A stretch of 64,000 nucleotides of DNA from Kineosporia mesophila (GTDB lineage: Bacteria > Actinomycetota > Actinomycetes > Actinomycetales > Kineosporiaceae): positions 62,001 through 126,000 of the forward strand of contig NZ_JAJOMA010000021.1 of assembly GCF_021129235.1 (NCBI RefSeq). The letters are read 5' to 3'. Shown piece after piece: positions 11,902 through 58,168 of this stretch; positions within the stretch are counted from its first letter, which is position 1; each line of letters begins with the position of its first letter. The translations under genes and the position numbers were made by a program. Under the pieces are notes generated by a model, which was not told the origin of the DNA, did no database searches, and worked only from the letters and a program-made list of their open reading frames with translations.

Positions 11902-12025
11902 GGCGGCTTTGCGTTACTCAAGTGACTGGAGTGACTGACTCTCGCCAGTAATCGCTAGATCGTGCAGACTGCCGGACCTGACCGGTTGACGCCGGGTAGC
12001 CTGATCCGTCATGGAGGGGGCGGGA

Positions 12026-14189: not shown

Positions 14190-15355
14190 CAGGCGACGTT
14201 CTCCAGCACCACGGCCAGCGCCTGACCGACGCCGATACAGATGGCCGCCACACCCCAGCGCTCATTCCGCTCGGCCAGCACGGCCGCCAGGTTCCCGATC
14301 AGCCGGCCGCCGGACGCACCCAGCGGATGACCGATCGCGATCGCCCCACCCCGCACATTGACGATCTCCGGGTCGGCCTTCCAGGCGTCGACACAGGCCA
14401 GGGCCTGGACCGCGAAGGCCTCGTTCAGCTCGACCGCTCCGACGTCTCCCCAGCCGATACCGGCCCGCTGCAAAGCTTTCTGTGCCGCGGCCACCGGTGC
14501 GAAGCCGAATTCCGGCGGATCGCAGGCATGTGCCGCCCGCCCGGCGATGCGGGCCCGCGGTGCCAGCCCGAGCAGATCCGCAGCCGCCGCCGACCCGACC
14601 AGAACGGCGGACGCGCCGTCGTTCAGCGGGGAGGCATTGGCCGCGGTGATCGTGCCGTCGGGGCGGAAGACGGGTTTCAGCGAGGCAAGTTTCTCAGGAG
14701 TGGACGAGGCCCGGATGCCCTCGTCCTTCGTCAGCCCGGCCACGGGCGTCACCAGTTCGTCGTAGAAGCCATCGTCCCAGGCCTGCTGGGCAAGCTGGTG
14801 CGAGCGCAGCGCGAACTCGTCCTGCCGTTCCCGACTGATCGAGAAGCGTTCCCGCAGCTGCTCGTTCGCCTCCCCCAGCGACACCGTCCATTCGTCGGGC
14901 AGCTTCTCGTTGACCAGACGCCACCCCAGGGTGGTGGAAACCAGCGAAGCGTCGAGCGCGGGTGCCGGTTTCATCAGGACCCAGGGCGCCCGCGTCATCG
15001 ATTCCACGCCGCCCGCGACCACCACGTCCGCGTCACCGGTCTCGATCGAGCGCGAGGCCGAGATCACCGCGTCCAGGCCGGACCCGCACAGCCGGTTCAC
15101 CGTGGTGGCCGGCACCGAGGTCGGCAGCCCGGCGAGCAACCCGGCCATCCGGGCCACATTGCGGTTCTCCTCACCCGCGCCGTTGGCGTTGCCCAGCACG
15201 ATCTCGTCGATCCGCGCCGGATCCAGAGCCGGAGCGCCGCCGGCCAGAGCCTTGACCACGTGAGCGGCGAGGTCATCGGGGCGGCTGTCGGCGAGCGCGC
15301 CGTTGAACCGCCCGAACGGTGTGCGCAGGGCTTGGTAGACGTACGCGGCGGGCAT
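14189..15355 (-). CDS. pcaF: 3-oxoadipyl-CoA thiolase (acetyl-CoA acyltransferase)
   Basis: A 388-aa type II thiolase that cleaves 3-oxoadipyl-CoA to succinyl-CoA and acetyl-CoA. The nucleophilic Cys is in RLCGSGLDAVISA, the His in GGAIAIGHPLGASGGR, and the second Cys in AICIGVGQALAVVLE; the CIGVGQ version is the one typical of PcaF. GVESMTRAPWV is also present. The ATG at 15355 (MPAAYVYQALRTPFGRFNG) marks the thiolase N-terminus; the frame is open further upstream through a minisatellite but without coding character. It is the first gene of pcaF-pcaI-pcaJ. The upper ring-cleavage genes are not in the window. Confidence 0.9.
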   Translation of the reverse strand: MPAAYVYQALRTPFGRFNGALADSRPDDLAAHVVKALAGGAPALDPARIDEIVLGNANGAGEENRNVARMAGLLAGLPTSVPATTVNRLCGSGLDAVISASRSIETGDADVVVAGGVESMTRAPWVLMKPAPALDASLVSTTLGWRLVNEKLPDEWTVSLGEANEQLRERFSISRERQDEFALRSHQLAQQAWDDGFYDELVTPVAGLTKDEGIRASSTPEKLASLKPVFRPDGTITAANASPLNDGASAVLVGSAAAADLLGLAPRARIAGRAAHACDPPEFGFAPVAAAQKALQRAGIGWGDVGAVELNEAFAVQALACVDAWKADPEIVNVRGGAIAIGHPLGASGGRLIGNLAAVLAERNERWGVAAICIGVGQALAVVLENVA

Positions 15356-15691
15356 TCGTCGACTCCCGGTGTTCGCTGGGCGAACGCATGTGCGTTCCAA
15401 GAACAGAGTAGCGCCTGGTGACCTGTGGGGAAGAGCGGCAGTGGCCGTCGGGGCACACCAGCGGAGGACGCCAGTGCTCACCAACGAGGTCCGGCCGGCC
15501 GGAACGCTCCGGCAGACCAGGTCGGGGAAGTCCGTGCGCGGTGGGCACCCGAAACTTCCCCACTGATGGACGACGGGTGTCCGGCCGCGGCCGGCGAACG
15601 TTCGCGGGTCGTCGCCCGTGGCACACGAACCACCCCCGGAGTGGGGCTGCCTCTTCGGCGCCGGCGCATGGCTGGGAGCAGCGCGGGAGAC

Positions 15692-15726
15692 GTGTACATC
15701 CGGTACCAGGTGAACCATGTGTACAC
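15692..15726. repeat. Imperfect hairpin, copy 1 of the GTGTAC family
   Basis: The left arm GTGTACATCCGGTAC and right arm GAACCATGTGTACAC flank the 5-base loop CAGGT. The right end GTGTACACAT and the centre GGTACCAGG are shared with the hairpin at 47540-47582, and GGAGCAGC/GAGAGCAGC occurs shortly before both. It sits in the pcaF leader. Confidence 0.75.
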
Positions 15727-15780
15727 ATGGCGAAGGGCTTAGCCGGGGAGGCCGGCCGTGGCACGAGCGACTCACCGGTG

Positions 15781-15975
15781 GGTCAGGTGGGTCAGGTGGG
15801 TCAGGTGGGTCAGGTGGGTCAGGTGGGTCAGGTGCGCAGGTGCGCAGGTGCACCAGGTGAGCCAGGTGAGCCAGGTGAGCCAGGTGAGCCAGGTGAGCCA
15901 GGTGAGCCAGGTGAGCCAGGTGAGCCAGGTGCGCAGGTGGTTCAGGTGAGCCAGGTGCGCAGGTGGGTCAGGTGC
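15781..15975. repeat. 9-bp minisatellite (CAGGTG core)
   Basis: Six exact copies of GGTCAGGTG run from 15781 to 15834. After variant units (CGCAGGTG twice and CACCAGGTG) come eight exact copies of AGCCAGGTG at 15860-15931, then mixed variants to about 15975. All units share CAGGTG. There are no unique spacers, so it is not a CRISPR. It lies 5' of pcaF and 3' of the IclR regulator. Confidence 0.95.
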
Positions 15976-15996
15976 ATACGGCTGTTGCCAAGGGCC

Positions 15997-16782
15997 TCAG
16001 TGGTTACGTACCAGCACCTGGGACAGGTCCGCGCTGATTTCCCGGGCGCAGGTCCGGAGGGGTTCCAGGAGCTCGGCCAGGATCTCCTCGACGCTGCGGC
16101 GGGTGGTGGTGGAGATGTTCACCGCCGCGATCACCTCGCCGGACGGCGCGAGCACCGGCGCGGCGACCGATCGCAGGCCAGGCTCCAGTTCCTCGTCGAC
16201 CAGGCACCAGCCCTGGTCCCGGACCTGGGAGAGCTGGGACCGGAGCTGACCCGCGTCCACAATTGTGTGACTGGTGAGACTCGCCAACGGGACCCGCGAG
16301 AGATACGCATCCACCCACTCGGCCGGCCGCCCGGCCAGCAGCACGCGACCCATCGACGTGGCGTAGGCCGGGAACCGGGTGCCGATGCCGATCGCGACGG
16401 TCATGATGCGGCGCCGCTCCACGCGGGCGACGTAGACGATGTCGTCGCCGTCGAGTTCGGACAGCGAGCTCGACTCCTCACAGGTCGCGGTGAGGTCGGA
16501 CAGGTGCGGTCGCGCGAGGACGGGCAACGGGGACGAGGCCAGATAAGCCCCTCCCAGTTCCAGCACCCGGGGTGTGAGGGTGAACCGGGAGTCCCGCATG
16601 CGCACGTAGCCGAGGTCTTCCAGCGTGTGCAGAATGCGGCGGGCGGTGGCGCGGGAGGTACCGGACCGGCGGGCGACGTCGGACAGCGTGAGGTCGGCGT
16701 GATCGGCGTCGAAGCAACGGATCACGGCGAGCCCCCGGGTGAGCGACTGCAGGCTCTCGGCGCGTGGGCCCGGATCCGTCAT
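15997..16782 (-). CDS. IclR-family transcriptional regulator, PcaR-like
   Basis: A 261-aa IclR protein. The N-terminal winged helix-turn-helix is LSDVARRSGTSRATARRILHT (residues about 30-50, shown in part), and the C-terminal ligand domain includes GTRFPAYATSMGRVLLAG and PVLAPSGEVIAAVNIST. RGLAVIRCFDADH is the standard linker start. The ATG at 16782 (MTDPGPRAESLQ) fits the family N-terminus. Upstream of and in the same direction as pcaFIJ, it is probably the beta-ketoadipate-responsive regulator of that operon; the ligand is an inference. It is divergent from the histidine kinase gene with 35 bp between starts. Confidence 0.85.
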   Translation of the reverse strand: MTDPGPRAESLQSLTRGLAVIRCFDADHADLTLSDVARRSGTSRATARRILHTLEDLGYVRMRDSRFTLTPRVLELGGAYLASSPLPVLARPHLSDLTATCEESSSLSELDGDDIVYVARVERRRIMTVAIGIGTRFPAYATSMGRVLLAGRPAEWVDAYLSRVPLASLTSHTIVDAGQLRSQLSQVRDQGWCLVDEELEPGLRSVAAPVLAPSGEVIAAVNISTTTRRSVEEILAELLEPLRTCAREISADLSQVLVRNH

Positions 16783-46196: not shown

Positions 46197-46418
46197 TGTT
46201 GAGAGAGGGGCATGAGGGACGCGATTGGTGACACTTATCGTCGCTGCTCACCAAAATCATTTCTACGCCCCGTCATCGCCCGTATCTTTCTGCTACCAAA
46301 CGTGACGGCTCTCAGGGCTTAAGTGCAACAGGGCCTTTAGCCCGGAAACACCGGCTCGTAGCATCGGGGACACGGGGCGTAGTACGGCGGGCAACAAGAA
46401 CGGGGAAGGGTGAACGCA

Positions 46419-47240
46419 ATGGCGCACGGACCCAGGGCAACGATCGCTCAACGGCAGGTCGCGAACCGGATTCGCATGTATCGACTGCGGGCGAAGAAGA
46501 CGCAGGAAGAGGCGGCGATGGCCTTCGGATGCGCGGTCTGGAAGATCCGCCGCATGGAAGCGGGGAAGGTCGCCGCCACTGCTGGGGACGTACGCGAGTT
46601 GGCTGTCATCTACGGCCTGGACGCGAGAGAGACCGAGGCCCTCGTCGGATTGGCCAAGGGCGCGAAAGCCCGCGGTTTCACTTCAACTTTGGATTCCATG
46701 CCGCAGGGTCTGACGCTTCTGGTCGGCCTGGAAGCACAGGCTTCCACCATGAAGGACTACTCGGCGTCCTACGTCACCGGACTACTGCAGACCCCCGACT
46801 ACATCCGCGCCATCATCCGGGCGGACCCCGACGTTCCCGAGGACTCGGTAGAACCCCTGGTGGACTTCCGACTGAGCAGACAACAGCTACTTGGTGCGGA
46901 AAACTCCTTGAAGGCGCAGTTTCTCGTTCACGAGGCGGCTCTGCGCACCCGCATCGGACCACCGCAACTGATGCAGGACCAGCTCAATCACCTGGTCGAG
47001 CTGAACGAATCAGAGGCGGTCACGATCCGCATCTGGCCCTTCGAGGCCGGGTTGCATCCACTCCTCGCGGCACCGTTCATCGTGATGGGGTTCGACGATC
47101 CGGCCGACCCAGATGTGGTCTACCTCGAAAACCACTTGGAGGCGAGATATCTGGAGATTCCCACACAGGTTCACAAGTTCGAGATGATGTTCACGGATGC
47201 CTTTGACCAGGCACAGCCGATCAAGGAGTTCAGACCATGA
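46419..47240 (+). CDS. XRE-family regulator with DUF5753 domain
   Basis: A 273-aa protein. The N-terminal helix-turn-helix reads NRIRMYRLRAKKTQEEAAMAF and the C-terminal DUF5753 domain includes YVTGLLQTPDYIRAI, FRLSRQQLLG and ETPTQVHKFEMMF-like end (here EIPTQVHKFEMMFTDAF). GGGGAAGGG lies eight bases before the ATG at 46419. It overlaps a DUF397 gene as ATGA. Such pairs are widespread in actinomycetes and act as a regulator and small partner, sometimes discussed as toxin-antitoxin-like. Confidence 0.9.
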   Translation: MAHGPRATIAQRQVANRIRMYRLRAKKTQEEAAMAFGCAVWKIRRMEAGKVAATAGDVRELAVIYGLDARETEALVGLAKGAKARGFTSTLDSMPQGLTLLVGLEAQASTMKDYSASYVTGLLQTPDYIRAIIRADPDVPEDSVEPLVDFRLSRQQLLGAENSLKAQFLVHEAALRTRIGPPQLMQDQLNHLVELNESEAVTIRIWPFEAGLHPLLAAPFIVMGFDDPADPDVVYLENHLEARYLEIPTQVHKFEMMFTDAFDQAQPIKEFRP

Positions 47241-47440
47241 CTGTCAACACCGACTGGTTCAAGGCAGCCAAGAGCGGATCACAGAACGGCTGCGTGGAAA
47301 TGCGCGGCGACAACGGCCAGGTTCAGGTCCGTGACACCAAGGCGAAGGGGCGGGGGCCGATCCTGAACATCCCCCCGAGCGCGTTCGGAGCCTGGGTCGC
47401 CGGTGCCAAGGGCGGCGAGCTCGACCTCCTGATGGGCTGA
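47237..47440 (+). CDS. DUF397 protein
   Basis: A 67-aa protein, WFKAAKSGSQNGCVEMRG then VQVRDTKAKGRGPILNIPPS and AFGAWVAGAKGGELD, the DUF397 pattern. It overlaps the upstream XRE-DUF5753 gene by four bases. DUF397 proteins are small partners of these regulators in actinomycetes (BldB-like family). Function: regulatory partner, mechanism unknown. Confidence 0.9.
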   Translation: MTVNTDWFKAAKSGSQNGCVEMRGDNGQVQVRDTKAKGRGPILNIPPSAFGAWVAGAKGGELDLLMG

Positions 47441-47539
47441 CCCTTCGGCGTGACGTGAACCCTGCCGCGGGCTACCCCGGTCATGCGTGGTGATCCAGGG
47501 GCGGCTCCGGGGCAGGAGCTGAGAGCAGCACAGTGCCAC

Positions 47540-47582
47540 CGATGTGTACACCTGGTACCAGGCGTACCAGGTGTACACATCG
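47540..47582. repeat. Perfect 19-bp hairpin, copy 2 of the GTGTAC family
   Basis: CGATGTGTACACCTGGTAC, loop CAGGC, then its exact complement. It lies 100 bp after the DUF397 stop, has no T-run, and shares GTGTACA, GGTACCAGG and GTGTACACAT with the imperfect hairpin at 15692. GAGAGCAGC lies shortly before, as at 15.7 kb. Confidence 0.85.
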
Positions 47583-47635
47583 CGAGTGTGTCGATCGCGC
47601 ATCCGAGCACCAGCCGCCCCTCAAGAGGCAAAGTC

Positions 47636-47654
47636 TTGCCACGCATTTGCCACG
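47636..47654. repeat. Direct repeats flanking the island's left border (putative arm-type sites)
   Basis: TTGCCACG at 47636-47643 and again at 47647-47654, an 11-bp period. About 115 bp before the left att repeat, in the same relative place as a CGGTGCCCCAA tandem on the right side. Both are followed by GTGAG(C/A)TTCAGCGG. A role as integrase arm sites is inferred. Confidence 0.45.
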
Positions 47655-47712
47655 ACCGGTGAGCTTCAGCGGCCTTGGCAGCGACTCAGCAAGACTCCGG
47701 CCAGCAAACGCA

Positions 47713-47756
47713 GAAACGGCCCGCAACCAGCATTCCTGCTGGACACGGACCGTTTC
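47713..47756 (-). terminator. Hairpin after the tRNA-Ser fragment
   Basis: GAAACGG/CCGTTTC with an inner CCAGC/GCTGG stem, 13 bases from the 3' end of the tRNA fragment reading on the minus strand. The position equals that of the hairpin after the intact tRNA, so it was probably the original terminator of tRNA-Ser(TGA). Confidence 0.6.
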
Positions 47757-47768
47757 TCACTGCCCAAC

Positions 47769-47829
47769 CGGCGGAGAGCGAGGGATTCGAACCCCCGGAC
47801 GGTTTAACCCGTCAGTGGTTTTCAAGACC
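47769..47829 (-). repeat. Left attachment repeat: 3' fragment of tRNA-Ser(TGA)
   Basis: A 61-bp stretch identical to 53646-53706. It contains the anticodon-loop region, variable arm, T arm and 3' acceptor strand of tRNA-Ser(TGA) (from 47772), but the 5' half is missing, so it is not a functional tRNA. This is the usual footprint of site-specific integration at a tRNA 3' end. Confidence 0.9.
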
Positions 47830-48415
47830 GCACTGAGCGCCTGCTTGACTTGCACATTCTCTAGCTTTGCCCAGGTCCGCGATATGCCGACGACAGGTCC
47901 AAGCCCCACCGCCCAACACAGGCTTGGGAAGCGGCGAACGAACCTGGGGGTGAGCTGAGCCACGGGCTCAGTGGACTACCCCTGGGACACAAGTAGAACA
48001 CAAGCCTCGGCTCCGCTTAGATCGGCAGGTCAGGAGAGTTCGGCCTGCCGATTGACTCTACTGAGCGGGGAGGCATTTAGCTCTCTTACCGTTTGATCAT
48101 GGGTGAGGAGCCAATCACTTCGAGGCCGGACCCGTCACCGGGTGCCACTGCGCCGTACAACGTGATCCGCCTGTACGTCTCGTCCGCAGGTGTCTGAACA
48201 ACCTGCAGACCTGAACGGGCGGGGGTTCCGAGGTTGATTAAGTGCCAGGATTCCTTGCAGCGAAACTTCGGTGCTGCACGGGGAAGTACTGCAGATACTT
48301 CCAATGCAGATCTCGGCGGAATAGCGGCCCTACTGGATCTCAAAGCATGGCAATGTATCCGGATTGAGGCGTTTAGGCAGCTGACAGAAGGCCCGTCCTT
48401 CGGTAAAGTACAGCC
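47830..48415. other. 586-bp island leader before the methyltransferase
   Basis: No gene is confidently supported. It has a 9-bp hairpin at 48021-48052 (ATCGGCAGG/CCTGCCGAT) and a 32-codon open frame from ATG 48099 that I would not call. The methyltransferase promoter must lie near the 3' end. I see no controller-protein gene typical of some restriction systems. Confidence 0.5.
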
Positions 48416-49663
48416 ATGGCACTAGAACCGTCACGGAAAGTTACCGAAAACCCTATGATTGAACCTAGGGTCATTACGGAAAGCGAAGAACTGACGGTCA
48501 GTCGTATCAAATCGACGCATCCCTTGCACCGTCCTCGACTACTTACCGCGACCGAGCGTGAACGGTACAGAGTCATGGCATCGCGCAGTAGGGCACAGGC
48601 AAGTTTAGCGGCAGCTGGGCAGCTCAAGCAGCTCCATGAACCGAATACACCAAACTTTAGACCCGAGGCTCTAATGCCCCAGCTTCCCGCTAACGGTCTA
48701 AGAGCGCTTAGTCTGTACAGCGGCGGCGGTGGCTTGGACCTATCTTTCGAGAGGGCAGGGTACGAACACGTCGCTAGCTACGAGATTCTCGGACATGCAG
48801 CTGAGACACTGGCTCGCAACAGGCCGAACTGGAAAGTCTTTGGTTCAGAAGCAGGAGATGTGAAGGGTGTCGACTGGACGAGCTGGAAAGGCAAGGTGGA
48901 TGTTTTACATGGGGGTCCGCCATGCCAGCCCTTCAGCAATGCCGGTAGACAGGAGGGACACTTAGACCCCCGGGATTGCTGGCCAGCAACTGCCGCAGCT
49001 ATCAAGGCGGTGCAGCCAAATGCCTTCATAGCCGAGAATGTGCCTGCACTGGCTGGAACAAAGTTCTCAAGCTATGTGCAAGAAATCATTCTGACGCCAC
49101 TGACCGCCGGCCGTCCACGCTATCATGTTCGTCAGTTTATCCTTGAAGCTAGGGACTTCGGCATACCGCAAGTGCGCCGGCGAGTTTTTTTTGTTGGATT
49201 CAAGACGAAGCGTGCGGCAGAGGCTTTCGAAGTCCCAGAACCTACCCACGCCTGGAACGAACCGACTTCGAACCTCCTACCCACAATGAGCCTTCGCGAA
49301 GCACTCGGCTTACCCAAAGACAATAGATACGTGGAAGGCTTGTCGCCAACCATTCGCAGCGGTCTCACCGGACCCCGCCATACTACGAGCGTAAACAATT
49401 CGGCGAGTTCGGCCCGCACGTGGGCAAGTATGGGCGTTTGGCCAAATGGAGTCGCTGTGGACCGGACTGCCGCAAGTGGATTTCCACCGGATTCAGGCGC
49501 TTTTCGCATGAGCGTCGCTGACGTGGCCCTCATCCAGGGTTTTCCCGAGTCGTGGACCTGGCCGCGAGCGGTGTATCAAGCCGTGGGACAGATTGGGAAT
49601 GCGGTTCCGCCTCCGCTCGGGTGGAGGGTGGCAAGGGCGGTGGCAGCAGCACTGAAGGCCTGA
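48416..49663 (+). CDS. DNA (cytosine-5-)-methyltransferase
   Basis: A 415-aa m5C methyltransferase. Motif I is LSLYSGGGGLDLSF (about residue 99), motif IV GGPPCQPFSNAG with catalytic Cys170, motif VI IAENVPAL, motif VIII GIPQVRRRVFFVGF, and motif X GQIGNAVPPPLG. An N-terminal extension of about 95 residues lies before motif I. TTA codons occur (near 48603 and 48961), unlike neighbouring core genes. It is convergent with a PD-(D/E)XK protein gene ending 120 bp further on. A type II modification role is inferred; the recognition sequence cannot be read. Confidence 0.93.
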   Translation: MALEPSRKVTENPMIEPRVITESEELTVSRIKSTHPLHRPRLLTATERERYRVMASRSRAQASLAAAGQLKQLHEPNTPNFRPEALMPQLPANGLRALSLYSGGGGLDLSFERAGYEHVASYEILGHAAETLARNRPNWKVFGSEAGDVKGVDWTSWKGKVDVLHGGPPCQPFSNAGRQEGHLDPRDCWPATAAAIKAVQPNAFIAENVPALAGTKFSSYVQEIILTPLTAGRPRYHVRQFILEARDFGIPQVRRRVFFVGFKTKRAAEAFEVPEPTHAWNEPTSNLLPTMSLREALGLPKDNRYVEGLSPTIRSGLTGPRHTTSVNNSASSARTWASMGVWPNGVAVDRTAASGFPPDSGAFRMSVADVALIQGFPESWTWPRAVYQAVGQIGNAVPPPLGWRVARAVAAALKA

Positions 49664-49783
49664 TTAGACGCTGACAAACCAGCCCTGCACGAGCGCAGGA
49701 TTTCAGTGCTCGTGCAGGGGCATTGGTACAGCCTTTAATGAAGCACGAGCAGATGGCTCAAGGCCACGCCGTCAGTAGGGCCA

Positions 49784-50560
49784 CTAAGCTTCACCAGCTT
49801 CTGTTTGTTCAGCCCTTCGTGCTTGTTCAGCTACGACTGGATCGACGGCTTCCTCCGCTGGCTGCTGTCCGCCTGCTATTATCTCGGCTCGACGTTCCAG
49901 ATATTCCCGAACAGACAATCGCAATGTCGCCGCATGATCTCGCGTGATGGGCTCGAGACGCTCGGAAAGGTATTTCCCTGGAATGTGAGGGTTGTTGAGA
50001 GTTGCGCCACGCCGAATTACATACGAGCAGCGCTCTCGCAGGAGATCAACCATTCGATCTCTCGAATATCGCCCCTCTGGCAAATCTGCGTTTTGTTTAT
50101 ACTGAAATTTTGTCCATTGCTTTTTCATGATCCTTTCGGCGTCTTCCATGGCAAAGCTTTGTTTGTCGCCGAGGACCTCAACAACAACTTCACTACTGAC
50201 CAGAGCTTCTGGCTGTTGAGCGAACAGGAGGTCAGTCTTGATGTAATTCTCTTTTTCTGCGAACCACGCAAGCATGTCCGCTGGTGATGCATAATAGCAG
50301 TGCTTTAGCGTTCGACCGTCCTTCTCGTAGAAGGCAAATAGCCAATGAAGCCGGCGCCATTTTGCCAAGTGCTCTGGACCCATATCGCGCACGGTCGATA
50401 CAGAATTGCCCGTGCTTGACTTGAGCTCGAATTCAACTGGATAATCAAGCTCGTCCAACTCTAGAACGGCATCAAGGCCGCTCCGGGTTCGATCCGGAGG
50501 TACAGTCAGATTAAACATGAGCAGCATCTGCTGCTCTCTCTCGTCGTCCTGGGCGGCCAT
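49784..50560 (-). CDS. Putative type II restriction endonuclease (PD-(D/E)XK fold)
   Basis: A 258-aa protein paired with the m5C methyltransferase. A nuclease-like core is visible: SGLDAVLELDE (Asp30) then YPVEFELKSSTG (Glu45-x-Lys47), which matches D...(E)xK. A second region includes KNQTKF-like basic residues, and the C-terminus is an acidic Ala/Glu-rich tail. Codon use and base composition match the methyltransferase, not the chromosome. Endonuclease activity is inferred from the fold motif and convergent pairing, not from a named family. Confidence 0.7.
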   Translation of the reverse strand: MAAQDDEREQQMLLMFNLTVPPDRTRSGLDAVLELDELDYPVEFELKSSTGNSVSTVRDMGPEHLAKWRRLHWLFAFYEKDGRTLKHCYYASPADMLAWFAEKENYIKTDLLFAQQPEALVSSEVVVEVLGDKQSFAMEDAERIMKKQWTKFQYKQNADLPEGRYSRDRMVDLLRERCSYVIRRGATLNNPHIPGKYLSERLEPITRDHAATLRLSVREYLERRAEIIAGGQQPAEEAVDPVVAEQARRAEQTEAGEA

Positions 50561-50753
50561 GGGTCAATAATGGCCTTGTGTAGCTGAAAATCAAGCGTGC
50601 ATCGAGGTGCGGCGTCGACGCGGTCAGAGCTTGATCCAGAAGAGAATAATTCGGCAGTGCGCAGGCTTCGCTGGTGACGTTGTGCCGGGTGGCCCGTCGG
50701 GTCGGCGCCGTAGGTGCCGCATGCCCAGCGGGGCGTCCCGGCAGGGCTGAGGT

Positions 50754-51236
50754 CTACTGCTGGGCGTCGTAGCGCTGGCGCCAGGCTCGGCATCGGTCGA
50801 GATAGTTCGGCAACTGCTCGGCGCGGAAGGCCTCGACGTCCCACGGGGCGGGGGTGAGGCCGTGGTCTTGGGGGCTGGCGTAGATGTAGGCCGGTCCTGA
50901 GCTGGTGTCTACGCGGTTGAGGGCGTAGCCGGGGGCCTCGAACGCGTCGAGGGCATTCCATTCGGCAATGCTCAGGTCGGTGAAGAGTTGCCCGTCCGCG
51001 ACACCGCCGGCCGACGTGATGATCGTCGGGTACGGCTGGTCAGGCAGGGCGATGACCTGCCATCCGTCGAGTGTGGCCGGAGTCCTGGTGGCGTCGCGGT
51101 CGATGAGGATGCGGACGACTTCAGGGAAGAGCAGGCTTCCGTAGACGAACAGCGGCGCCGGGTCCGCCGAGACGTGGACCGTCCGGCCAGAGGGCGTGGA
51201 GGTGTCTCGGGGTGAGGGGGCGCTGGTAGGCGTCAC
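50754..51236 (-). CDS. Gamma-glutamylcyclotransferase (AIG2)-like protein
   Basis: A 160-aa protein with the substrate-binding VYGSLLFPE motif and the catalytic Glu in LDAFEAPGYALNRV, the AIG2/GGCT-fold signature. The GTG at 51236 overlaps the upstream HELLGH gene by 116 bases; the real start may be later. Enzymes with this fold act on gamma-glutamyl amides or peptides. It is the last gene of a three-gene operon with two unknown proteins; the substrate is unknown. Confidence 0.82.
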   Translation of the reverse strand: MTPTSAPSPRDTSTPSGRTVHVSADPAPLFVYGSLLFPEVVRILIDRDATRTPATLDGWQVIALPDQPYPTIITSAGGVADGQLFTDLSIAEWNALDAFEAPGYALNRVDTSSGPAYIYASPQDHGLTPAPWDVEAFRAEQLPNYLDRCRAWRQRYDAQQ

Positions 51237-52356
51237 GGAGGGCCTGCTTCCGGGTGTCTGCGTCGGCGTGGTCGGCGAGGTTCACCCACCAGTCGATCCC
51301 GGCCGAGTAGGACCAGAGGTAGGAGCGCAGCAGGGGGTTGGCGCCTCGATCGGTGAGGATGTCACCGATCGCTGCACTGGTCCAGAACGGCACCCTTGCC
51401 CGTGCATGGTCGGCGCATTCGGCAACCGTGGCACCGGCATTGATCGCGGTATGCAGTTCTCCCCGCACGAGCTGTAGGTAGTGCGCCAGACGCACGCGGG
51501 CCACGACCTGAGCATCGTCGGGGGTCAGGAACAGCGGCATGGCCTGGGCCAGACCTTCGAGCATTACTTGATAGGGCCCGTTGACCGACAGCAGGCGCAC
51601 CCACGGCACGTCCTGCGTGGCGCAGACCTGGGCGTAGGAGGCGAACTGGACCGCGTGCCCCAGCAGCTCGTGCATGGCGAACACGCGCACCTGAGCCTGG
51701 GTGAAGGTCGCGTTGCGGCGGTTGAACCGAAGCCTCACGTTGGGGCCGGCGCCATCCAGCCAGTATGCCCAGTATTCGTCCACGTCCGTGATCTCGACCC
51801 GCACCTCGTACGGGGCGCTCGTGTGGACCAGGTCCCGTAGGACGGTTTCCAGGGCTCGGGCGGTCGCGGGGATCTGCTCGACAGCATCGTCGCTGGTGAC
51901 GGGCTGTTCCAGCTCGTTGAGCTGGTGGTCCAGATCTCGGCCCCACTGCACCCCGAGATCGCTGACGGCTTTGATGGCCTGGTCGCGGACCTCAAGGAGG
52001 TAGTCCTCATCCCATCCGCCGGCACCACAACCTTGGGTCTGGCGTAGGTAGTCACCCAGTGGCATCCGCTGCCCGAGCATTTCCCCGAGGTAGGCGCGAT
52101 GGGAGGTCAGAACATCGGCAATGTCGCCGGCCTCGGTTCCCAGCGCATCGGCCTGGGCACTGAGGTCGGTGAACTGCTCGTAGACGTCAAGGCGTCCGGC
52201 GGCAGGGGTGACCAGCCGGTCGTTGGGTGCGCAGTCGTAGTCGATGACGGCCTCGCCGCCTCGGCCGCTCTCGTGGCCGTGCCAGGAACGGATGACCTGC
52301 TCGACGCGGTCGCGGAGTTCGGCAATCTCGCTTCGGTGCTCAGCCACGCGGGACAT
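51121..52356 (-). CDS. Putative metallohydrolase with HELLGH motif
   Basis: A 411-aa soluble protein starting at ATG 52356 (MSRVAEHRSEIAELRDRVEQ). The only hallmark is MHELLGHAVQFASYAQV near residue 228, an H-E-x-x-x-H pattern that resembles the H-E-x-x-P-G-H of DUF885-type peptidases, and a second helical cluster downstream (VRLAHYLQLVRGELHTAINAG, shown in part) that might supply a third ligand. The N-terminal half is helical, perhaps coiled. It overlaps the upstream unknown gene by 17 bp. Peptidase activity is a guess from the motif. Confidence 0.6.
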   Translation of the reverse strand: MSRVAEHRSEIAELRDRVEQVIRSWHGHESGRGGEAVIDYDCAPNDRLVTPAAGRLDVYEQFTDLSAQADALGTEAGDIADVLTSHRAYLGEMLGQRMPLGDYLRQTQGCGAGGWDEDYLLEVRDQAIKAVSDLGVQWGRDLDHQLNELEQPVTSDDAVEQIPATARALETVLRDLVHTSAPYEVRVEITDVDEYWAYWLDGAGPNVRLRFNRRNATFTQAQVRVFAMHELLGHAVQFASYAQVCATQDVPWVRLLSVNGPYQVMLEGLAQAMPLFLTPDDAQVVARVRLAHYLQLVRGELHTAINAGATVAECADHARARVPFWTSAAIGDILTDRGANPLLRSYLWSYSAGIDWWVNLADHADADTRKQALRDAYQRPLTPRHLHALWPDGPRLGGPGAAVRLRKPALP

Positions 52357-52990
52357 CCCATCGCAAGGTGATGGCCCGGTTGGGCCGCAGGTTCGTGCGG
52401 ACCAGCTCCACGGCCACTCCACTGTCGTCGCGTCGCCAGGTCAGACTTTCGGTGGCGCTGATCTCGGAGCCGTCCGGGCGTTCCTCCAACGCCGAACAGC
52501 TCGACAACACGTTCACCCCGGCATGCCGCAGGCGCAACGTAAAGCGGTCGACCGGCCTGACAATCGACTGCCGCCAGTAATGGTCAGAGACAAATCGGCC
52601 CCCGGCGCAGCGGTAGGCAACGACGGCGGACTCTCCCGGCGGCAGAGCGGGCAGGAGCCGACACGCGAATCGAATCGTGGTCGCCGTCTCGTGCTTGCGC
52701 TCGATCATGATGTTGCGGGACTCGTCCTCGGGCGGCAGCGTCTCGAACTTCAGCGGTCCGTCGGTGTGTTCGAACCACAGTTCCCGGCTCATGCTCGTGA
52801 GCGGGGTGTCTGTGTCGTTGTACAGCTCGTGCCGGTAGGTCAAGGTCGACCAGCCGTCGGCGTCCACGTCGATGTCCAACGTCATGTTCCGGTCCCAGAT
52901 ATGACCAGAGGACGACGTGGTTGCCTGCGTCGGAACAGCTGGTGTTCGGGTCGTGGCCCTCTCTGCCAACCTTAAGCGAGACGCCGCCAT
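52340..52990 (-). CDS. Hypothetical beta-rich protein
   Basis: A 216-aa protein with alternating strands (TLTYRHELYNDTDTPL, ESRNIMIERKHETATTIRFA, shown in parts, and GESAVVAYRCAGGRFVSDHYW). It ends RPNRAITLRWDVPRG. I recall similar segments behind helix-turn-helix domains in streptomycetes, but no DNA-binding domain is present here. The start is probably near the ATG at 52990. It is the first gene of the three-gene operon in the island. Confidence 0.55.
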   Translation of the reverse strand: MAASRLRLAERATTRTPAVPTQATTSSSGHIWDRNMTLDIDVDADGWSTLTYRHELYNDTDTPLTSMSRELWFEHTDGPLKFETLPPEDESRNIMIERKHETATTIRFACRLLPALPPGESAVVAYRCAGGRFVSDHYWRQSIVRPVDRFTLRLRHAGVNVLSSCSALEERPDGSEISATESLTWRRDDSGVAVELVRTNLRPNRAITLRWDVPRG

Positions 52991-53022
52991 GGCAGACAGG
53001 CACGAGTAAGCGATTTCTAACA

Positions 53023-53061
53023 GGAACGGGCCAACCGGCGAGAAGCCAGTTGGCCCGTTCC
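53023..53061 (-). terminator. Perfect 13-bp hairpin
   Basis: GGAACGGGCCAAC and its complement with a 13-base loop, just past the end of the small membrane gene on the minus strand and before the operon start. It most likely terminates that gene. Confidence 0.75.
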
Positions 53062-53090
53062 CATACTTCAGGTAGGTGCCGCCCGTTGAT

Positions 53091-53306
53091 TCAGGAGACC
53101 TGGCGAGCTACCAATTGCTCCAACGCCACGTTTCCGATCCTCCGAGCAGGAGCCCAGAGGACTTCAACGACTACCTTGACGGTGAGACCACTGACAACAC
53201 TCATAAGCGTCACCTTTCCTAACAGATTTGCGAACCGGCCAGCCTTGCGAGCACGAACAAGAAACAGGACCAAGCACGCGGCGACGAGAGTCAACAGCAG
53301 CGTCAC
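53091..53306 (-). CDS. Small membrane protein of the island
   Basis: The frame can be extended upstream but coding character begins with the GTG at 53306, preceded by AAAGGA: MTLLLTLVAACLVLFLVRARK, then GRFANLLGKVTLMSVVSGL and a hydrophobic/charged tail. About 71 aa with one or two helices. Function unknown; it might be a remnant membrane component. Confidence 0.45.
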   Translation of the reverse strand: MTLLLTLVAACLVLFLVRARKAGRFANLLGKVTLMSVVSGLTVKVVVEVLWAPARRIGNVALEQLVARQVS

Positions 53307-53512
53307 CAAGGCATCCTTTCCGAAGTGTCCTGGATCCGAACCAGGACCGCCAGGAAACCTCAGCCAACGGACGTACCCAGGATATCCGCGAGCTCCAGCA
53401 AGGGACACAGCCGTTTGGGGGTCCAGCCGGTGACGGCTACGGCCCAGGCTCGTCAGAGCCCTCCGCGCCTCAGCTCGCACCTCTTCGAGGCAGGCCAGGA
53501 GATGCGAGCAAT

Positions 53513-53534
53513 CGGTGCCCCAACGGTGCCCCAA
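53513..53534. repeat. Tandem 11-bp direct repeats (putative integrase arm-type sites)
   Basis: CGGTGCCCCAA twice in a row, 112 bp from the right att repeat. The left side has an 11-bp spaced TTGCCACG pair at the same distance from its repeat, and each is followed by GTGAG(C/A)TTCAGCGG. Recombinase arm sites are an inference. Confidence 0.5.
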
Positions 53535-53590
53535 CCAGTGAGATTCAGCGGTCCGGACTGAGACCGAATGGGACTCCGACCTCCGGACAA

Positions 53591-53635
53591 GGAACGGCCC
53601 CTGCCAGGCATCGCGCCTGTTCAGGGGCCATTCTT
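53591..53635 (-). terminator. Terminator-like hairpin after tRNA-Ser(TGA)
   Basis: GGAACGGCCCCTG pairs with CAGGGGCCATTCT on the minus strand (with wobble), 14 bases past the tRNA 3' end. The stem is shared with the map terminator. Confidence 0.7.
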
Positions 53636-53645
53636 ACTGCTCACA

Positions 53646-53706
53646 CGGCGGAGAGCGAGGGATTCGAACCCCCGGACGGTTTAACCCGTCAGTGGTTTTC
53701 AAGACC
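53646..53706 (-). repeat. Right attachment repeat within tRNA-Ser(TGA)
   Basis: 61 bp identical to 47769-47829. It starts three bases beyond the tRNA 3' end and stops at the anticodon stem, typical for tyrosine-recombinase att cores. Confidence 0.9.
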
Positions 53707-53735
53707 ACCGCCATCGGCCACTCGGCCAGCTCTCC
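53649..53735 (-). tRNA. tRNA-Ser (anticodon TGA)
   Basis: Acceptor stem GGAGAGC/GCTCTCC with discriminator G. The anticodon stem-loop is GTGGT-CTTGAAA-ACCAC, with anticodon TGA. A long variable arm (GACGGGTTAAACCGTC) and T arm with TTCGAAT. The 3' 58 nt are duplicated at 47772-47829. This is the integration site of the island. Confidence 0.95.
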
Positions 53736-53804
53736 TCCACATCTTCCGGAAGCAAGATGCGCGCACCAGTCTGGCACAACCACCCGCCCGCGGACGATGG
53801 GGAT

Positions 53805-56129
53805 TCAGCTCACGGCGGGGGCCTGTCGTGAGGGGAGGCCCAGCACCTGGCGGCGGCCGGGGTCCCAGGCCGCTGCCTCGACGGGGCGGCCGAAGAACCA
53901 GCCCTGGGCCGCCGGGCAGCCTGCCCTGGTCAGGGCCTCGGCGTCGGCCAGGTCCTCCACACCCTCGGCCACCACGCTCATGTTCAGGGCCTGGGCCAGC
54001 CAGAGCACGGCGCTGATGATGGAGGCCTTGTCCTGGTCGTGGGAGAGGCCGACGACGAAGCTGCAGTCGAGCTTCACGATGTCGGCGGGCACGCTCTGCA
54101 ACCAGGTCAGGGACGAGTAGCCGGTGCCGAAGTCGTCCAGGGCCAGGCGCACGCCCAGGGCCTTGACGGCCAGGAGCCGGTCGCGCAGGTCGATGCCGCG
54201 CTCCAGCATCGAGGTCTCGGTGATCTCCAGGACGAGTCGGGAGGCGTCGGCCAGGCCGGACCGGGACAGGGCCTCGGTCAGCATCGGCACGAACTCCGGC
54301 TCGGCCAACTGCTTCGGGCTGACATTGACGGACATGTAGGGCACGGTGTCGCCCCAGGCCACGAGCTGGGCCAGGGCGGTTCTGAGCACGTGCTCGCCGA
54401 GCGGCACGATCATGCCCGTCTCCTCGGCCAGGGGGATGAAGACGCCGGGGGCGATCAGGTCGCCGCCGGTCCCCCGCAGCCGCACCAGGGCCTCGGCCCC
54501 GACCACCTGCTTGCTCTCCAGCGACACGATGGGCTGGAACCACACCGGCAGCTGGTCGATCGGATCTATTTCCAGGGCGGCCTGCAGCGCACGCTCGGCC
54601 GTGACCCGCCGCTCCGTAGCCTCGCACATGGCGTCGTCGAAGAGCTGCACGCGTGCCCGCCCCGACTGCTTGGCGGCGTACATGGCCATGTCGGCGCTCT
54701 GCAGGGTGGCCCCGGCGTCCGCCGCGTCCAGCGGCAGGCTCAGACCCACACTGGCCGTCACCGTGAGCTGCCGTTCGCCGGGAATGGCGAAGGGCTCCTC
54801 GAAGCATCCGGCCACGCTCATCGCCAGGTCTTCGGCGGCACGGGTGGATCCGACGGTCGCGACGGCGAACTCGTCACCGCCCAACCGGGCAACCACCGCC
54901 GTATCGGGCACCACTGCCCGCAACCGTGTGCCGATCGTCCTCAATACCTCGTCGCCGGCGCTGTGCCCGTAGGAGTCGTTGACGTGCTTGAACTTGTCGA
55001 CGTCGATGTAGATCACCGAGACCTGACCGACGTACTCGGCCACAAGCGTCCCTAAGTCCGACTCGAAGGCGCGCCGCCCGAGCAGGCCGGTGAGGGCGTC
55101 CTCCCGGGCCTGTTTGCGCAGGATCTTCTCGTGCTGGTGCTTCTCCGTGACGTCGAGGTAGTGCGAGACGATGACCTGGAGCTTGCCGGCGCTGTCACGC
55201 AGAGCGCTGGCGTGCATCTCGACCTGCCGCAGCCCGCCCTCGGAGTCGCGGAAGGTGCGTTCCTCCCGCAGCACGTCGGTCTCACCGTTCAGGATGTCCC
55301 GGTGCAGACGGCTCTCGCGCCCGTCCGCCAGCTGAATCGGCAGGTCGGAGAGGCGGGATCGGGGTGGCAGCGGCCCGGCCATACCCGACCAGGAGACGAA
55401 GGCCGGGTTCACGCGCAGCACGATGCCGTCGGCCGCGAGCATGGTCATCGCGATCGGGGCTTCCTCGAAGGCCGCGGTGAACTGGGCCTCGGCCTGGCTG
55501 AGGTCGTCGAGCGCCCGGCGTTCCTCGGCCTCGGTGAGCCGCCAGGCCGCAACCTGCGCGGAGGCGGCGAGCAACACGGCAACGCTGTGCACGATCGCCC
55601 AGAACCAGGGGTGCTGCGTGCCGTAACCGTGCTCGTAGGTCATGTGCGGCATCCACGATCCGAGCACGGCGTGGTGCAGGAACGTGGCCAGCAGGAACGT
55701 CAGGAACGGCACCCAGTCGCGGTACAGAGCCAGCACGCCGACGGCGATGAAGAAGGAGAAGTGGGCCTCGGTGCGGCCGTCGTAGAGCATGACGAGCTCG
55801 GCGCAGACCGTGGTCAGGCCGATCGCGACGGCCGACGACGCGACCCGCTGGGACTTGATCTTTACGGCGCAGGCGATCATCGCGGCGATCACCAGCGAGG
55901 CGACGGCCCATTCGGCGTCGAGGCGGTGGCGCACGGCGGCGACCACCGTCAGACTCAGCCCGCAGACGACAGTGAGCCAGGTCAGCAACCGGTGCCGGTT
56001 CTGCCAGTCTTCGTGCCGCAGTCCGATCCCGGCCGGCAGGATCGCCCCGACCTGCCGGTATCCCCGTGCGATCAATGCTGGCACGAGTGTGTCTTCGACT
56101 CGTTTCCAGGGCGCCTGAGTGCGGTTCAC
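53805..56129 (-). CDS. Bifunctional GGDEF-EAL c-di-GMP protein with membrane sensor
   Basis: A 774-aa protein starting at GTG 56129. Six hydrophobic helices lie between residues 40 and 195 (LLTWLTVVCGLSLTVVAAV; FIAVGVLALYRDWVPFLTFL, shown in part). The FSFFIAVG..YRDW..HH pattern resembles a membrane sensor of histidine kinases. PAS follows, then RLGGDEFAVATVG and AEALVRLRGTGG with DDFGTGYSSLTWL. The RxxD inhibitory site is not in its usual place before GGDEF, unlike in the two proteins at 37-43 kb. Synthase and phosphodiesterase motifs look intact. Confidence 0.9.
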   Translation of the reverse strand: MNRTQAPWKRVEDTLVPALIARGYRQVGAILPAGIGLRHEDWQNRHRLLTWLTVVCGLSLTVVAAVRHRLDAEWAVASLVIAAMIACAVKIKSQRVASSAVAIGLTTVCAELVMLYDGRTEAHFSFFIAVGVLALYRDWVPFLTFLLATFLHHAVLGSWMPHMTYEHGYGTQHPWFWAIVHSVAVLLAASAQVAAWRLTEAEERRALDDLSQAEAQFTAAFEEAPIAMTMLAADGIVLRVNPAFVSWSGMAGPLPPRSRLSDLPIQLADGRESRLHRDILNGETDVLREERTFRDSEGGLRQVEMHASALRDSAGKLQVIVSHYLDVTEKHQHEKILRKQAREDALTGLLGRRAFESDLGTLVAEYVGQVSVIYIDVDKFKHVNDSYGHSAGDEVLRTIGTRLRAVVPDTAVVARLGGDEFAVATVGSTRAAEDLAMSVAGCFEEPFAIPGERQLTVTASVGLSLPLDAADAGATLQSADMAMYAAKQSGRARVQLFDDAMCEATERRVTAERALQAALEIDPIDQLPVWFQPIVSLESKQVVGAEALVRLRGTGGDLIAPGVFIPLAEETGMIVPLGEHVLRTALAQLVAWGDTVPYMSVNVSPKQLAEPEFVPMLTEALSRSGLADASRLVLEITETSMLERGIDLRDRLLAVKALGVRLALDDFGTGYSSLTWLQSVPADIVKLDCSFVVGLSHDQDKASIISAVLWLAQALNMSVVAEGVEDLADAEALTRAGCPAAQGWFFGRPVEAAAWDPGRRQVLGLPSRQAPAVS

Positions 56130-56179
56130 TCGGTTGCCCAGGGCTTACGGACGAAGTGCTCCCCCTGGGTGGTCACCGT

Positions 56180-56416
56180 TCAGTCGTCGACGCGACGCCA
56201 GAACCAGCGTGTGGGTTTCGCCAGGTCGAGCGGCACCCGGCCGAGTGCTGTCGCCAGCACGTCGGAACATCGCGGACACAGCGGCGCTCCGTCGTCGGGA
56301 CGGGGAAGGGTGTCACGGGTGCAGCCGACACAACGGATCGGCCGCACCCCCTTCCCCGGAACCACCATCGTGCCGGGCACAACCATCGGGGCGTCGTTCG
56401 CGAACATCTGAGTCAT
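56180..56416 (-). CDS. Small zinc-ribbon protein
   Basis: A 78-aa protein (start ATG 56416; a GTG at 56434 is also possible). Cys pairs CVGC and CPRC spaced by 15 residues form a zinc ribbon, and the C-terminus is basic. It could be a DNA- or RNA-binding adaptor. Function unknown. Confidence 0.65.
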   Translation of the reverse strand: MTQMFANDAPMVVPGTMVVPGKGVRPIRCVGCTRDTLPRPDDGAPLCPRCSDVLATALGRVPLDLAKPTRWFWRRVDD

Positions 56417-56627
56417 GACAGCTGTCTCCGTCACCCATCCCCTGAGTACCCGAGCCGGAGGGCGGCGCGGGCCGACAAACCAATGCGCTCAGTAATCGTA
56501 TCGCTACGATATGCGATGTCGATATCTCACGCACCGGAGTGTGTGCTGTATCGGCAGACCGCCCGAACGGCTTGACCATGTCGATCAAGCGGCCTGCCGG
56601 GGTGGGTTGTTCAGAGGACTGGAGGGA

Positions 56628-57209
56628 CTAGATCCAGATCGCGGGGTCTTCCATCCAGTGGTCACGCATGTCCGGCGCGGGCTGCTTGATCACACCGGGC
56701 ACTCCGACCACCACTGCGTCGTCCGGAACATCGCGCACAACAACAGCATTGGCGCCGATCTGAGCATTCTTGCCGACCGTGATCGGCCCCAGGACACGGG
56801 CACCCGCACCCACGACCACCCCGTCGAGCAGGGTGGGGTGACGCTTGACCGGCTCGAGACTGCGCCCGCCCAGGGTGACATCCTGGTAGAGCATCACGTC
56901 GTTCCCGATCTCGGCCGTCTCCCCGATGACCACACCGGTGGCGTGATCGATGAAGAAACGGCGCCCGATGGTGGCACCGGGGTGGATTTCCACCCCGGTG
57001 ACCGTCCGGGTCCACAGCGAGATCAGGCGCGCCGGTACCCGCCATCCGCGCAGCCACATCCGATGGGTGAGCCGGTGGCTCCAGATCGCCTGCAACCCGG
57101 GGTATCCCAGGATCAGCTCGACGTTGCTGTTCACCGCCGGGTCGCGAAGTTTCGCCGAGGCGAGGTCTTCACGAAGGGTGCCGTAGGCCCCCTTCACCTT
57201 GTTTCTCAT
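56628..57209 (-). CDS. cysE: Serine O-acetyltransferase
   Basis: A 193-aa hexapeptide-repeat acetyltransferase that makes O-acetylserine, the acceptor for cysteine synthesis. The left-handed beta-helix has GVEIHPGATIGRRFFIDHAT, GVVIGETAEIGNDV and GGRSLEPVKRHPTL, and the catalytic His pair is seen in IDHATG and KRHPTL. The ATG at 57209 is preferred over the TTG at 57233. Length fits the short EpsC-type. It lies 30 bp past cysK on the same strand. Confidence 0.92.
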   Translation of the reverse strand: MRNKVKGAYGTLREDLASAKLRDPAVNSNVELILGYPGLQAIWSHRLTHRMWLRGWRVPARLISLWTRTVTGVEIHPGATIGRRFFIDHATGVVIGETAEIGNDVMLYQDVTLGGRSLEPVKRHPTLLDGVVVGAGARVLGPITVGKNAQIGANAVVVRDVPDDAVVVGVPGVIKQPAPDMRDHWMEDPAIWI

Positions 57210-57238
57210 CGTTTGCAGCTGGTGGCCCTTCAATGCAA

Positions 57239-58168
57239 TCAGTCCACCAGGTCCTTGAAGAGGATGGTGGACAGGTAGCGCTCACCGAACGACGGGATGA
57301 TGACGACGATGATCTTGCCGTCGAACTCCGGCCGGCGGGCCACCTCGTTGGCGGCCCAGAGGGCGGCGCCGGAGGAGATGCCGACCAGCAGGCCCTCTTC
57401 CTTGGCCGCGCGACGGGCCCACTCGACCGCGTCGTCGACCTCGGCGTCGAACACCTCGTCGTAGACCTTGGTGTCGAGGATCTCCGGGACGAAGTTGGCG
57501 CCGATGCCCTGGATCGGGTGCGGGCCGGGGGCCCCACCGTTCAGGATCGGCGAGAGCTTCGGCTCGACCGCGAAGATCTTGATGTCCGGGTTCTTCTCCT
57601 TCAGCACCTGGCCGACACCGGTGATGGTGCCGCCCGTGCCGATGCCCGCGACGACCGCCGCAACCTTGCCGTCGGTGTCGGCCCAGATCTCCTCGGCCGT
57701 GGTCTTACGGTGGATCGCCGGATTGGCCTCGTTGGCGAACTGACGGGCCAGCACGGCGCCGCGCTCGGCGCCGATCTCCTCGGCCTTCGCCACCGCACCC
57801 TTCATGCCCTCGCTGCCCGGGGTGAGCACGAGCTCGGCACCGTAGGCACGCAGCAGCGCGCGGCGCTCCTTGCTCATGGTCTCCGGCATGGTCAGCACGA
57901 CCTTGTAACCGCGGGCGGCACCCACGAAGGCCAGGGCGATACCGGTGTTACCACTGGTCGCCTCGACGATGGTGCCACCGGGCTTGAGCTGGCCCGAGGC
58001 CTCGGCGGCGTCGATGATCGCCACGCCGATACGGTCCTTGACACTGTTGGCCGGGTTGTAGAACTCCAGCTTGGCCGCCACGATGGCGCCGGCGCCTTCG
58101 GTGAGACGGTTGATGCGGACGAGCGGAGTATTTCCGACCAGCTGGGTCGCGTCGTCATAGATCGGCAT
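57239..58168 (-). CDS. cysK: Cysteine synthase A (O-acetylserine sulfhydrylase)
   Basis: A 309-aa PLP enzyme: O-acetylserine plus sulfide to cysteine. PLP Lys is in [11 protein letters not shown]; the phosphate loop is [14 protein letters not shown], and [16 protein letters not shown] is the substrate loop. GAGGGGTGA precedes the ATG at 58168. It is the first gene of a cysK-cysE pair. Confidence 0.95.

Follow-up and report, generated by a model that had tools for sequence, protein, structure and literature searches.

Remnants of actinomycete integrative and conjugative elements (AICEs) are known from Streptomyces populations. According to the account of decayed AICEs (DAICEs) given in PMC9513070, some strains have an empty site, one has a functional AICE, and others contain cargo and truncated integrases between direct repeats. 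The same source places restriction-modification (R-M) genes among the AICE cargo, describes accretion at one tRNA and suggests later mobilization of the remains in cis (PMC9513070). Elements that have lost the genes for integration and transfer and have kept attL and attR are defined as cis-mobilizable elements (CIMEs; PMC5704250). Streptomyces precedents are XSAM1, a 42-kb element next to pSAM2 (PMC4891641), and TR1 (PMC8369830). In this work we analyzed a stretch of 64,000 nucleotides of the Kineosporia mesophila genome (genome G000, contig C14, positions 62001–126000; hereafter the window) that carries a 5,877-bp insertion at the 3' end of tRNA-Ser(TGA). With a probability of about 0.86, this island is an AICE that has decayed and now amounts to a CIME.

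Both attL and attR are retained in the island. Its derivation from an AICE is indicated by a 2.3-kb segment of 77.5% identity and by the homology of its left arm, and the integration and transfer genes appear to have been lost. The gene loss and the kept att sites are the same as in CIMEs, and the sister species K. rhizophila has a tandem array at the same site. Compared with XSAM1, as described in PMC4891641, the island is smaller and has no adjacent AICE in its genome. It differs from the Streptomyces DAICEs, as far as these are presented in PMC9513070, in its genus and site, in that no piece of an integrase was found in it, and in the retention of an origin-like block and of the left arm. 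Relatives within the genus carry RepSA and TraB/FtsK of the kind known from pSAM2-type AICEs (PMC3218068), together with a tyrosine integrase gene by the tRNA in the one relative checked; none of these genes is in the island itself. A search for literature on 'integrative and conjugative element' in Kineosporia found nothing.

The tRNA-Ser(TGA) site and its empty counterpart

The boundaries of the island are formed by the following features:

47769–47829, minus strand: attL, an exact 61-bp copy of the 3' part of tRNA-Ser(TGA); the left flank of the closest relative runs into its single tRNA here
53646–53706, minus strand: attR, inside the intact tRNA (repeat and ARAGORN)
53647–53735, minus strand: intact tRNA-Ser(TGA) (ARAGORN; Rfam tRNA, 52.8 bits)

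The original prediction described two exact 61-bp copies bounding about 5.9 kb, with the intact tRNA on the right and a fragment on the left, and attributed them to site-specific integration. The coordinates proved correct. ARAGORN calls the intact tRNA around the right copy and no tRNA at the left copy, which is a 3' fragment of the same gene. The repeat finder paired a slightly longer segment, 47754–47829 with 53631–53706 (95% over 76 nt). With positions 53640–53735 as the query, only two matching places were found in the 7.78-Mb assembly of 61 contigs (E up to 0.001). Since no third place of this kind was found in the genome, and the closest relative has a single copy with joined flanks, the repeat pair is not a chance one.

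Five further genomes of the genus (G001–G005) were compared, including K. rhizophila (G003) and the closest relative, G004, which shows 95% identity in the neighboring GGDEF/EAL protein. In G004 there is one copy of the tRNA and both flanks are contiguous, so that its locus (L039) represents an empty site. The flanks are 87.9% and 94.0% identical to those in the window; positions 47385–47829 correspond to 11171–11599 of L039 and positions 53572–58108 to 11463–16001, and the base-level alignments stop and restart at the repeat. The proposed check against relatives lacking the insert thus gave the expected picture, one tRNA and no left repeat, and site-specific integration is borne out.

The same island was not seen at tRNA-Ser of any of the five genomes; K. 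rhizophila, with three copies of the tRNA, holds different elements there. Vertical inheritance of the interior was rejected, because G004 lacks it and G001, G002, G004 and G005 have one tRNA copy each.

Several observations concern the surroundings of the site. A pair of XRE/DUF5753 and DUF397 genes lies at 46410–47440, just to the left of attL; it is missing in G004, which retains only a stretch resembling the end of the DUF397 gene. In G005, about 21 kb of other genes, without a second repeat, are located to the left of tRNA-Ser (L040 9491–17001 and L041 1–13464). This stretch ends in an antitoxin/ParE-like pair and could be either an old island or a cluster of biosynthetic genes. The GGDEF/EAL protein has 86 matches in the genome studied and 83–98 in the five relatives, numbers that look like a large cyclic-di-GMP repertoire.

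Relationship to the AICEs of the genus and gene loss

The closest relative of the interior was found in K. rhizophila. Positions 50626–52894 are 77.5% identical over 2304 columns (blastn) to L080, a RepSA/TraB AICE on contig C12 of this species, and the gene order is the same: a GGACT gene (79% identity), a gene that we call HELLGH after its motif (75%) and the C-terminus of a helix-turn-helix (HTH) gene (68%). From left to right the island contains:

47830–48172, no strand: left arm; its first part, to 47906, has its homologue in the left arm of the tRNA-Ser AICE of K. rhizophila, and 47854–48172 in a stretch of the AICE of G002
48099–48191, plus strand: truncated antitoxin gene of which about 30 initial codons are left; a similar gene in the G002 AICE precedes that for a ParE-type toxin
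48416–49663, plus strand: predicted C5-cytosine DNA methyltransferase, 415 aa (Pfam PF00145, 1.7e-51)
49784–50560, minus strand: predicted type II restriction endonuclease, PvuII-like (PDB PvuII, 1e-11; PADLOC REase_II, 7.2e-9)
50630–50748, plus strand: conserved noncoding block starting CTTGATCCAGAAGAG, from alignments a putative RepSA rolling-circle double-strand origin
50754–51236, minus strand: gamma-glutamylcyclotransferase-like (GGACT/AIG2) protein (Pfam PF06094, 5.9e-13; 79% identical in AICE L080)
51121–52356, minus strand: HELLGH metallopeptidase-like protein (HExxxH ... EGLA motifs), weakly MATCAP-like
52340–52894, minus strand: C-terminal part of the AICE HTH gene, from alignments; the open frame runs to 52990
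52895–53515, no strand: unmatched segment with an uncertain 147-aa frame at 53091–53534 and the deletion junction at its left edge
53516–53645, no strand: right arm, similar to the sequence adjoining the repeat in K. rhizophila remnant A

At tRNA-Ser of K. rhizophila three copies of the tRNA sequence bound two tandem elements (L055, contig C79). The right one is a 14.5-kb AICE with genes for FtsK/TraB, RepSA and a tyrosine integrase (Pfam FtsK, 3.8e-11; RepSA, 2e-99; Phage_integrase, 1e-6). A small protein is encoded at the position of Xis (HTH_17, E only 0.056), and a gene for a ParE-type toxin adjoins the tRNA. This AICE also carries relatives of the island HELLGH (50%) and HTH (43%) proteins. 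Together with it, six more loci (L076–L081) share the order from HELLGH to RepSA, so that HELLGH, HTH, XRE, a small gene, TraB and RepSA follow each other in all seven HELLGH loci having TraB and RepSA. Of these seven AICEs, the one at K. rhizophila tRNA-Ser has an integrase confirmed by a family search; the integrases of the six others are putative. The K. mesophila genome itself also has an AICE of this Rep clade, on contig C45. In the left K. rhizophila element, remnant A (4 kb, L055 5211–9320), the integrase gene is interrupted by a frameshift and a stop codon.

The left end of the island also resembles AICE sequences: the left arm aligns with L055 (77.8% over 167 columns, repeat included) and, outside the repeat, with the G002 AICE L076 (70.6% over 326 columns). 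The right arm aligns with L055 at remnant A (81.6% over 196 columns, repeat included). The 11-bp sequence GGTGCCCCAAC, present twice in tandem at 53514–53535, may represent integrase arm sites.

Two genes of the island are cut short. No toxin gene follows the antitoxin start at 48099–48191, which has no antitoxin match in Pfam, so that 'phd-like' is a label only. In the alignment, the island HTH protein is without the N-terminal DNA-binding half found in its seven homologues, and DNA homology to L080 ends at 52894, inside the gene. The distance from this break to the tRNA is about 9.6 kb (estimated) in the K. rhizophila tRNA-Ser AICE versus 0.75 kb here; the absent part extends from the inside of the HTH gene through Rep and Int. 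The AICE match that stops inside a gene and the cut-short antitoxin start support the view that the element has decayed.

The genes needed for autonomous life were looked for in several ways. No integrase, Rep or Tra gene was recognized among the six island frames scanned, and neither an integrase, nor Xis, nor a replication initiator, nor TraB within 47830–53645; contig C14 contains none of the 12 integrase and three RepSA matches of the assembly, and no DNA match to the part of the AICEs from TraB to Int was found in the island. The claim that it has no integrase or transfer gene therefore stands. The original prediction further offered two views of the island. One was a decayed element that kept only useful genes: the AICE match and the cut genes agree with decay, and the presence of truncated genes speaks against the words 'only useful'. 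The other, a cassette depending on a helper, is possible in the sense of a CIME, as the att sites are kept, and is opposed by the location of two integrase relatives at other tRNAs.

These two integrases, 46% and 40% identical to that of the K. rhizophila tRNA-Ser AICE, adjoin tRNA-Arg(CCG) and tRNA-Thr(TGT) in the genome studied, and two further integrase matches lie near tRNA-Lys(TTT) and tRNA-Asn(GTT); no relative was found at tRNA-Ser. The suggested search for a tRNA-Ser integrase thus led to other sites in all four of the 12 matches for which a site was determined, and a resident helper for the tRNA-Ser site is not supported. It is possible that an unrelated resident integrase with tRNA-Ser specificity is among the eight unplaced matches.

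Restriction-modification cargo, conserved proteins and the putative origin

The R-M candidate noticed earlier was substantiated: the adjacent and convergent genes for the methyltransferase and the endonuclease, both open, form a predicted type II R-M system. The methyltransferase contains the motifs PCQPFS, ENV and GNAV, and its PDB matches are the HaeIII and HhaI methylases. In PADLOC it scores best with DruM of Druantia and less well with the type II models; no other Druantia protein was found among the six frames scanned. The similarity of the endonuclease to PvuII covers residues 10–102, with the ELK segment aligned. The pair thus shares the ELK segment with PvuII and the methyltransferase family with HaeIII and HhaI, and it differs from the PvuII pair, since the island methyltransferase is of the C5 type and PvuII's own methyltransferase is an N4-cytosine enzyme. 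This R-M pair is rare in the sample of 394 genomes of the class. Outside the genome studied, the endonuclease has a match in two of them (G368 and G040), each with an adjacent methyltransferase, and the G040 match contains one stop. The R-M pair is flanked by the left arm and, at 50630, by the conserved block; in 500-base windows the GC content is 50–59% across 48000–50499 versus 60–68% across 50500–53499.

The HELLGH and EGLA motifs are invariant in all 11 HELLGH proteins compared. Its likeness to MATCAP is a lead only. MATCAP is the top Foldseek match (E 0.05) of a poor structure model (pLDDT 57), for which no match was found at E up to 0.001, and the longer start of the frame gives Pfam MATCAP with E 0.12; with a Pfam cut-off of E 0.1 none of the 11 members matches MATCAP, and the search of PDB sequences with a HELLGH profile yielded just two matches, at E 0.82 and 0.99, to proteins other than MATCAP. 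The HELLGH search yielded 15 match rows in six genomes: the island, the seven AICE loci, L082–L084, L085 (a partial copy at a contig end) and L086 (three pieces of one broken copy). No match was found in seven other genomes of the family, nor in plasmids. The idea that HELLGH is an AICE-only gene was rejected, because L082, L083 and L084, about 60% identical, have neither TraB nor RepSA nearby. Because L082 and L084 have neighboring genes in common, HELLGH at these loci seems likely to be a chromosomal paralogue.

The HTH protein of the AICEs matches Pfam HTH_31 just under the cut-off (2.1e-5). At L090 (4835–5776), its beta domain resembles in Foldseek a subunit of oligosaccharyltransferase complexes, which gave the best matches, and M1 aminopeptidases; the model has pLDDT 67 overall and TM scores of 0.3–0.4 over the whole query. 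The HTH gene and the neighboring gene for the HExxxH peptidase, a pair found in all seven AICEs of the clade, suggest a candidate induction switch of the ImmR/ImmA type, by analogy with that known switch.

The conserved block of about 115 bp is present in the island and in all seven AICEs with the HELLGH-HTH pair, and it starts abruptly at CTTGAT. Its first 16 bases are invariant in all eight elements (identity 1.00), while the mean ungapped pairwise identity directly upstream is 0.25–0.28, and no two of the eight gave a blastn match in the 2.5 kb upstream (E up to 1e-3). We regard the block as a putative RepSA origin, with CTTG-AT presumably as the nick site, as in the pC194/phiX174 group. 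The block and its core were sought in several collections. The block had no Rfam match (E up to 1), and a plasmid search with it gave only partial, weak matches in six records. A scan of named genomes for the core pattern detected four stretches; three are in Kineosporia rhizophila JCM 9960 and the fourth is in Micromonospora phaseoli, where the related core is near a RepSA fragment. In the class, the block model matched 32 of 394 genomes, G000 included, at E up to 0.01, full-length only in G000, and the exact 15-mer occurs in three of the 394, again including G000. Most of the other class matches cover only the GC-rich 3' part of the block and look like chance. Five distant matches in four other genomes begin at CTTG, and two of these (G312:C2 and G288:C322) are located about 6 kb upstream of RepSA on the same strand. 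RepSA nicks a double-strand origin, and pSAM2 has been placed with the pC194 family, partly by motifs and nick site, as stated in PMC3218068.

Part of the evidence points away from an origin. Of the 13 RepSA loci in six Kineosporia genomes, 11 were compared; seven have the block and four lack it, and in these four the best score was 14.4 bits and no match started at the CTTG core. The split fits equally well with Rep clades having their own origins and with a block that has another job. In addition, the other three distant matches (G221:C5, G263:C285 and G312:C29) are on contigs without a RepSA match. It is quite possible, at somewhat worse than even odds, that 50630–50748 instead terminates transcription of the HELLGH operon or regulates it: the block closely follows the HELLGH (or GGACT) stop, a hairpin could form, and the same RepSA regions without the block and RepSA-free contigs agree with such a role. 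Against it stand the invariance of the 16 leading bases, the nearness of the core to RepSA in M. phaseoli and in the two distant genomes, and a folding not clearly better than that of shuffled sequences (z −1.65 and 0.20). A separate origin-like core (model positions 1–61) was found at G000:C13:106533–106593, on the contig of a tRNA-Thr AICE, with no RepSA match there.

A cargo edge lying exactly at CTTG was seen in Kineosporia only. The sequence upstream of CTTG is GC-rich in the distant loci L091, L102, L103, L105 and L116 and, judged by eye, is alike in L103, L105 and L116; the sharp edge of the block is therefore so far a feature of Kineosporia. A rather unlikely idea is that in this AICE clade cargo is swapped at the replication origin itself by RepSA, an HUH nickase. 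RepSA might end a round of rolling-circle replication at a stray CTTG or overrun its own, and DNA just upstream would then be deleted or captured; ISCR/IS91 transposases delete or capture DNA in a like manner. The island, with its R-M cargo ending exactly at CTTG, would in that case be a fossil of origin-based exchange. Rep-driven cargo exchange in AICEs is a guess.

Origin of the island and its significance

The comparisons show that an element entered the tRNA gene and produced attL and attR. Its middle matches a RepSA/TraB AICE, everything that AICEs have from the inner part of the HTH gene to the integrase is absent, and the R-M pair has its place between left arm and putative origin. The parent presumably had a tyrosine integrase specific for this tRNA, like that of K. 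rhizophila. The remnant presumably now stays put, and the R-M pair possibly selects for its retention and restricts foreign DNA. Renewed movement could occur in cis, if a new AICE of the same specificity integrated beside the remnant and the outer sites recombined, or in trans, if a tRNA-Ser-specific integrase were supplied. Either way, movement probably needs a newcomer element.

Several facts weigh against the decay of an AICE. The G004 locus also differs nearby for another reason, the missing XRE/DUF397 genes, and so is not otherwise identical. No parent AICE with this exact cargo was found. The segment 52895–53515 matches none of the 12 loci compared, and the loss may therefore have involved more than a single deletion. 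From 53526 on, the right arm also aligns with the sequence next to the only tRNA copy of G002; the arm is consequently not element-specific and could be ordinary tRNA-flanking DNA. Finally, because L082–L084 are outside AICEs, HELLGH alone is no proof of an AICE origin, and that argument depends mainly on the 2.3-kb match, which includes the block, GGACT and HTH.

Two other explanations should be considered against the decay of an AICE. The first is an evolved satellite, a compact element that has always lacked an integrase and relies on a helper AICE for regular movement in trans, similar to phage-inducible chromosomal islands or integrative and mobilizable elements; it would agree with the retention of attL, attR, the left arm and the putative origin and with the presence of another AICE of the same Rep clade on C45. 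We consider this improbable, as the truncated HTH and antitoxin genes point to deletion and not to design, the two relatives of the tRNA-Ser integrase use other tRNAs (with eight of the 12 integrase matches unplaced), the only two copies of the tRNA in the genome are the two described here, and tRNA-Ser in the five other genomes of the genus is without the island. The GC step between the R-M region and the rest suggests that the cargo came separately, and together with the unspecific right arm it would suit an old, empty tRNA duplication whose interior was assembled by unrelated insertions. Such an origin appears very improbable, because AICE sequence is found both beside the repeat, in the left arm, and in the middle, and one integrated AICE explains both.

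Thus, the island is a well-explained case of a known kind, since such AICE remnants are already known. It represents an ordinary and clearly resolved instance of AICE decay outside Streptomyces, in which an empty site, a relative with an AICE, a tandem array and a remnant can be compared within one genus. The retained origin-like block leads to a testable idea on how these elements may swap their cargo.

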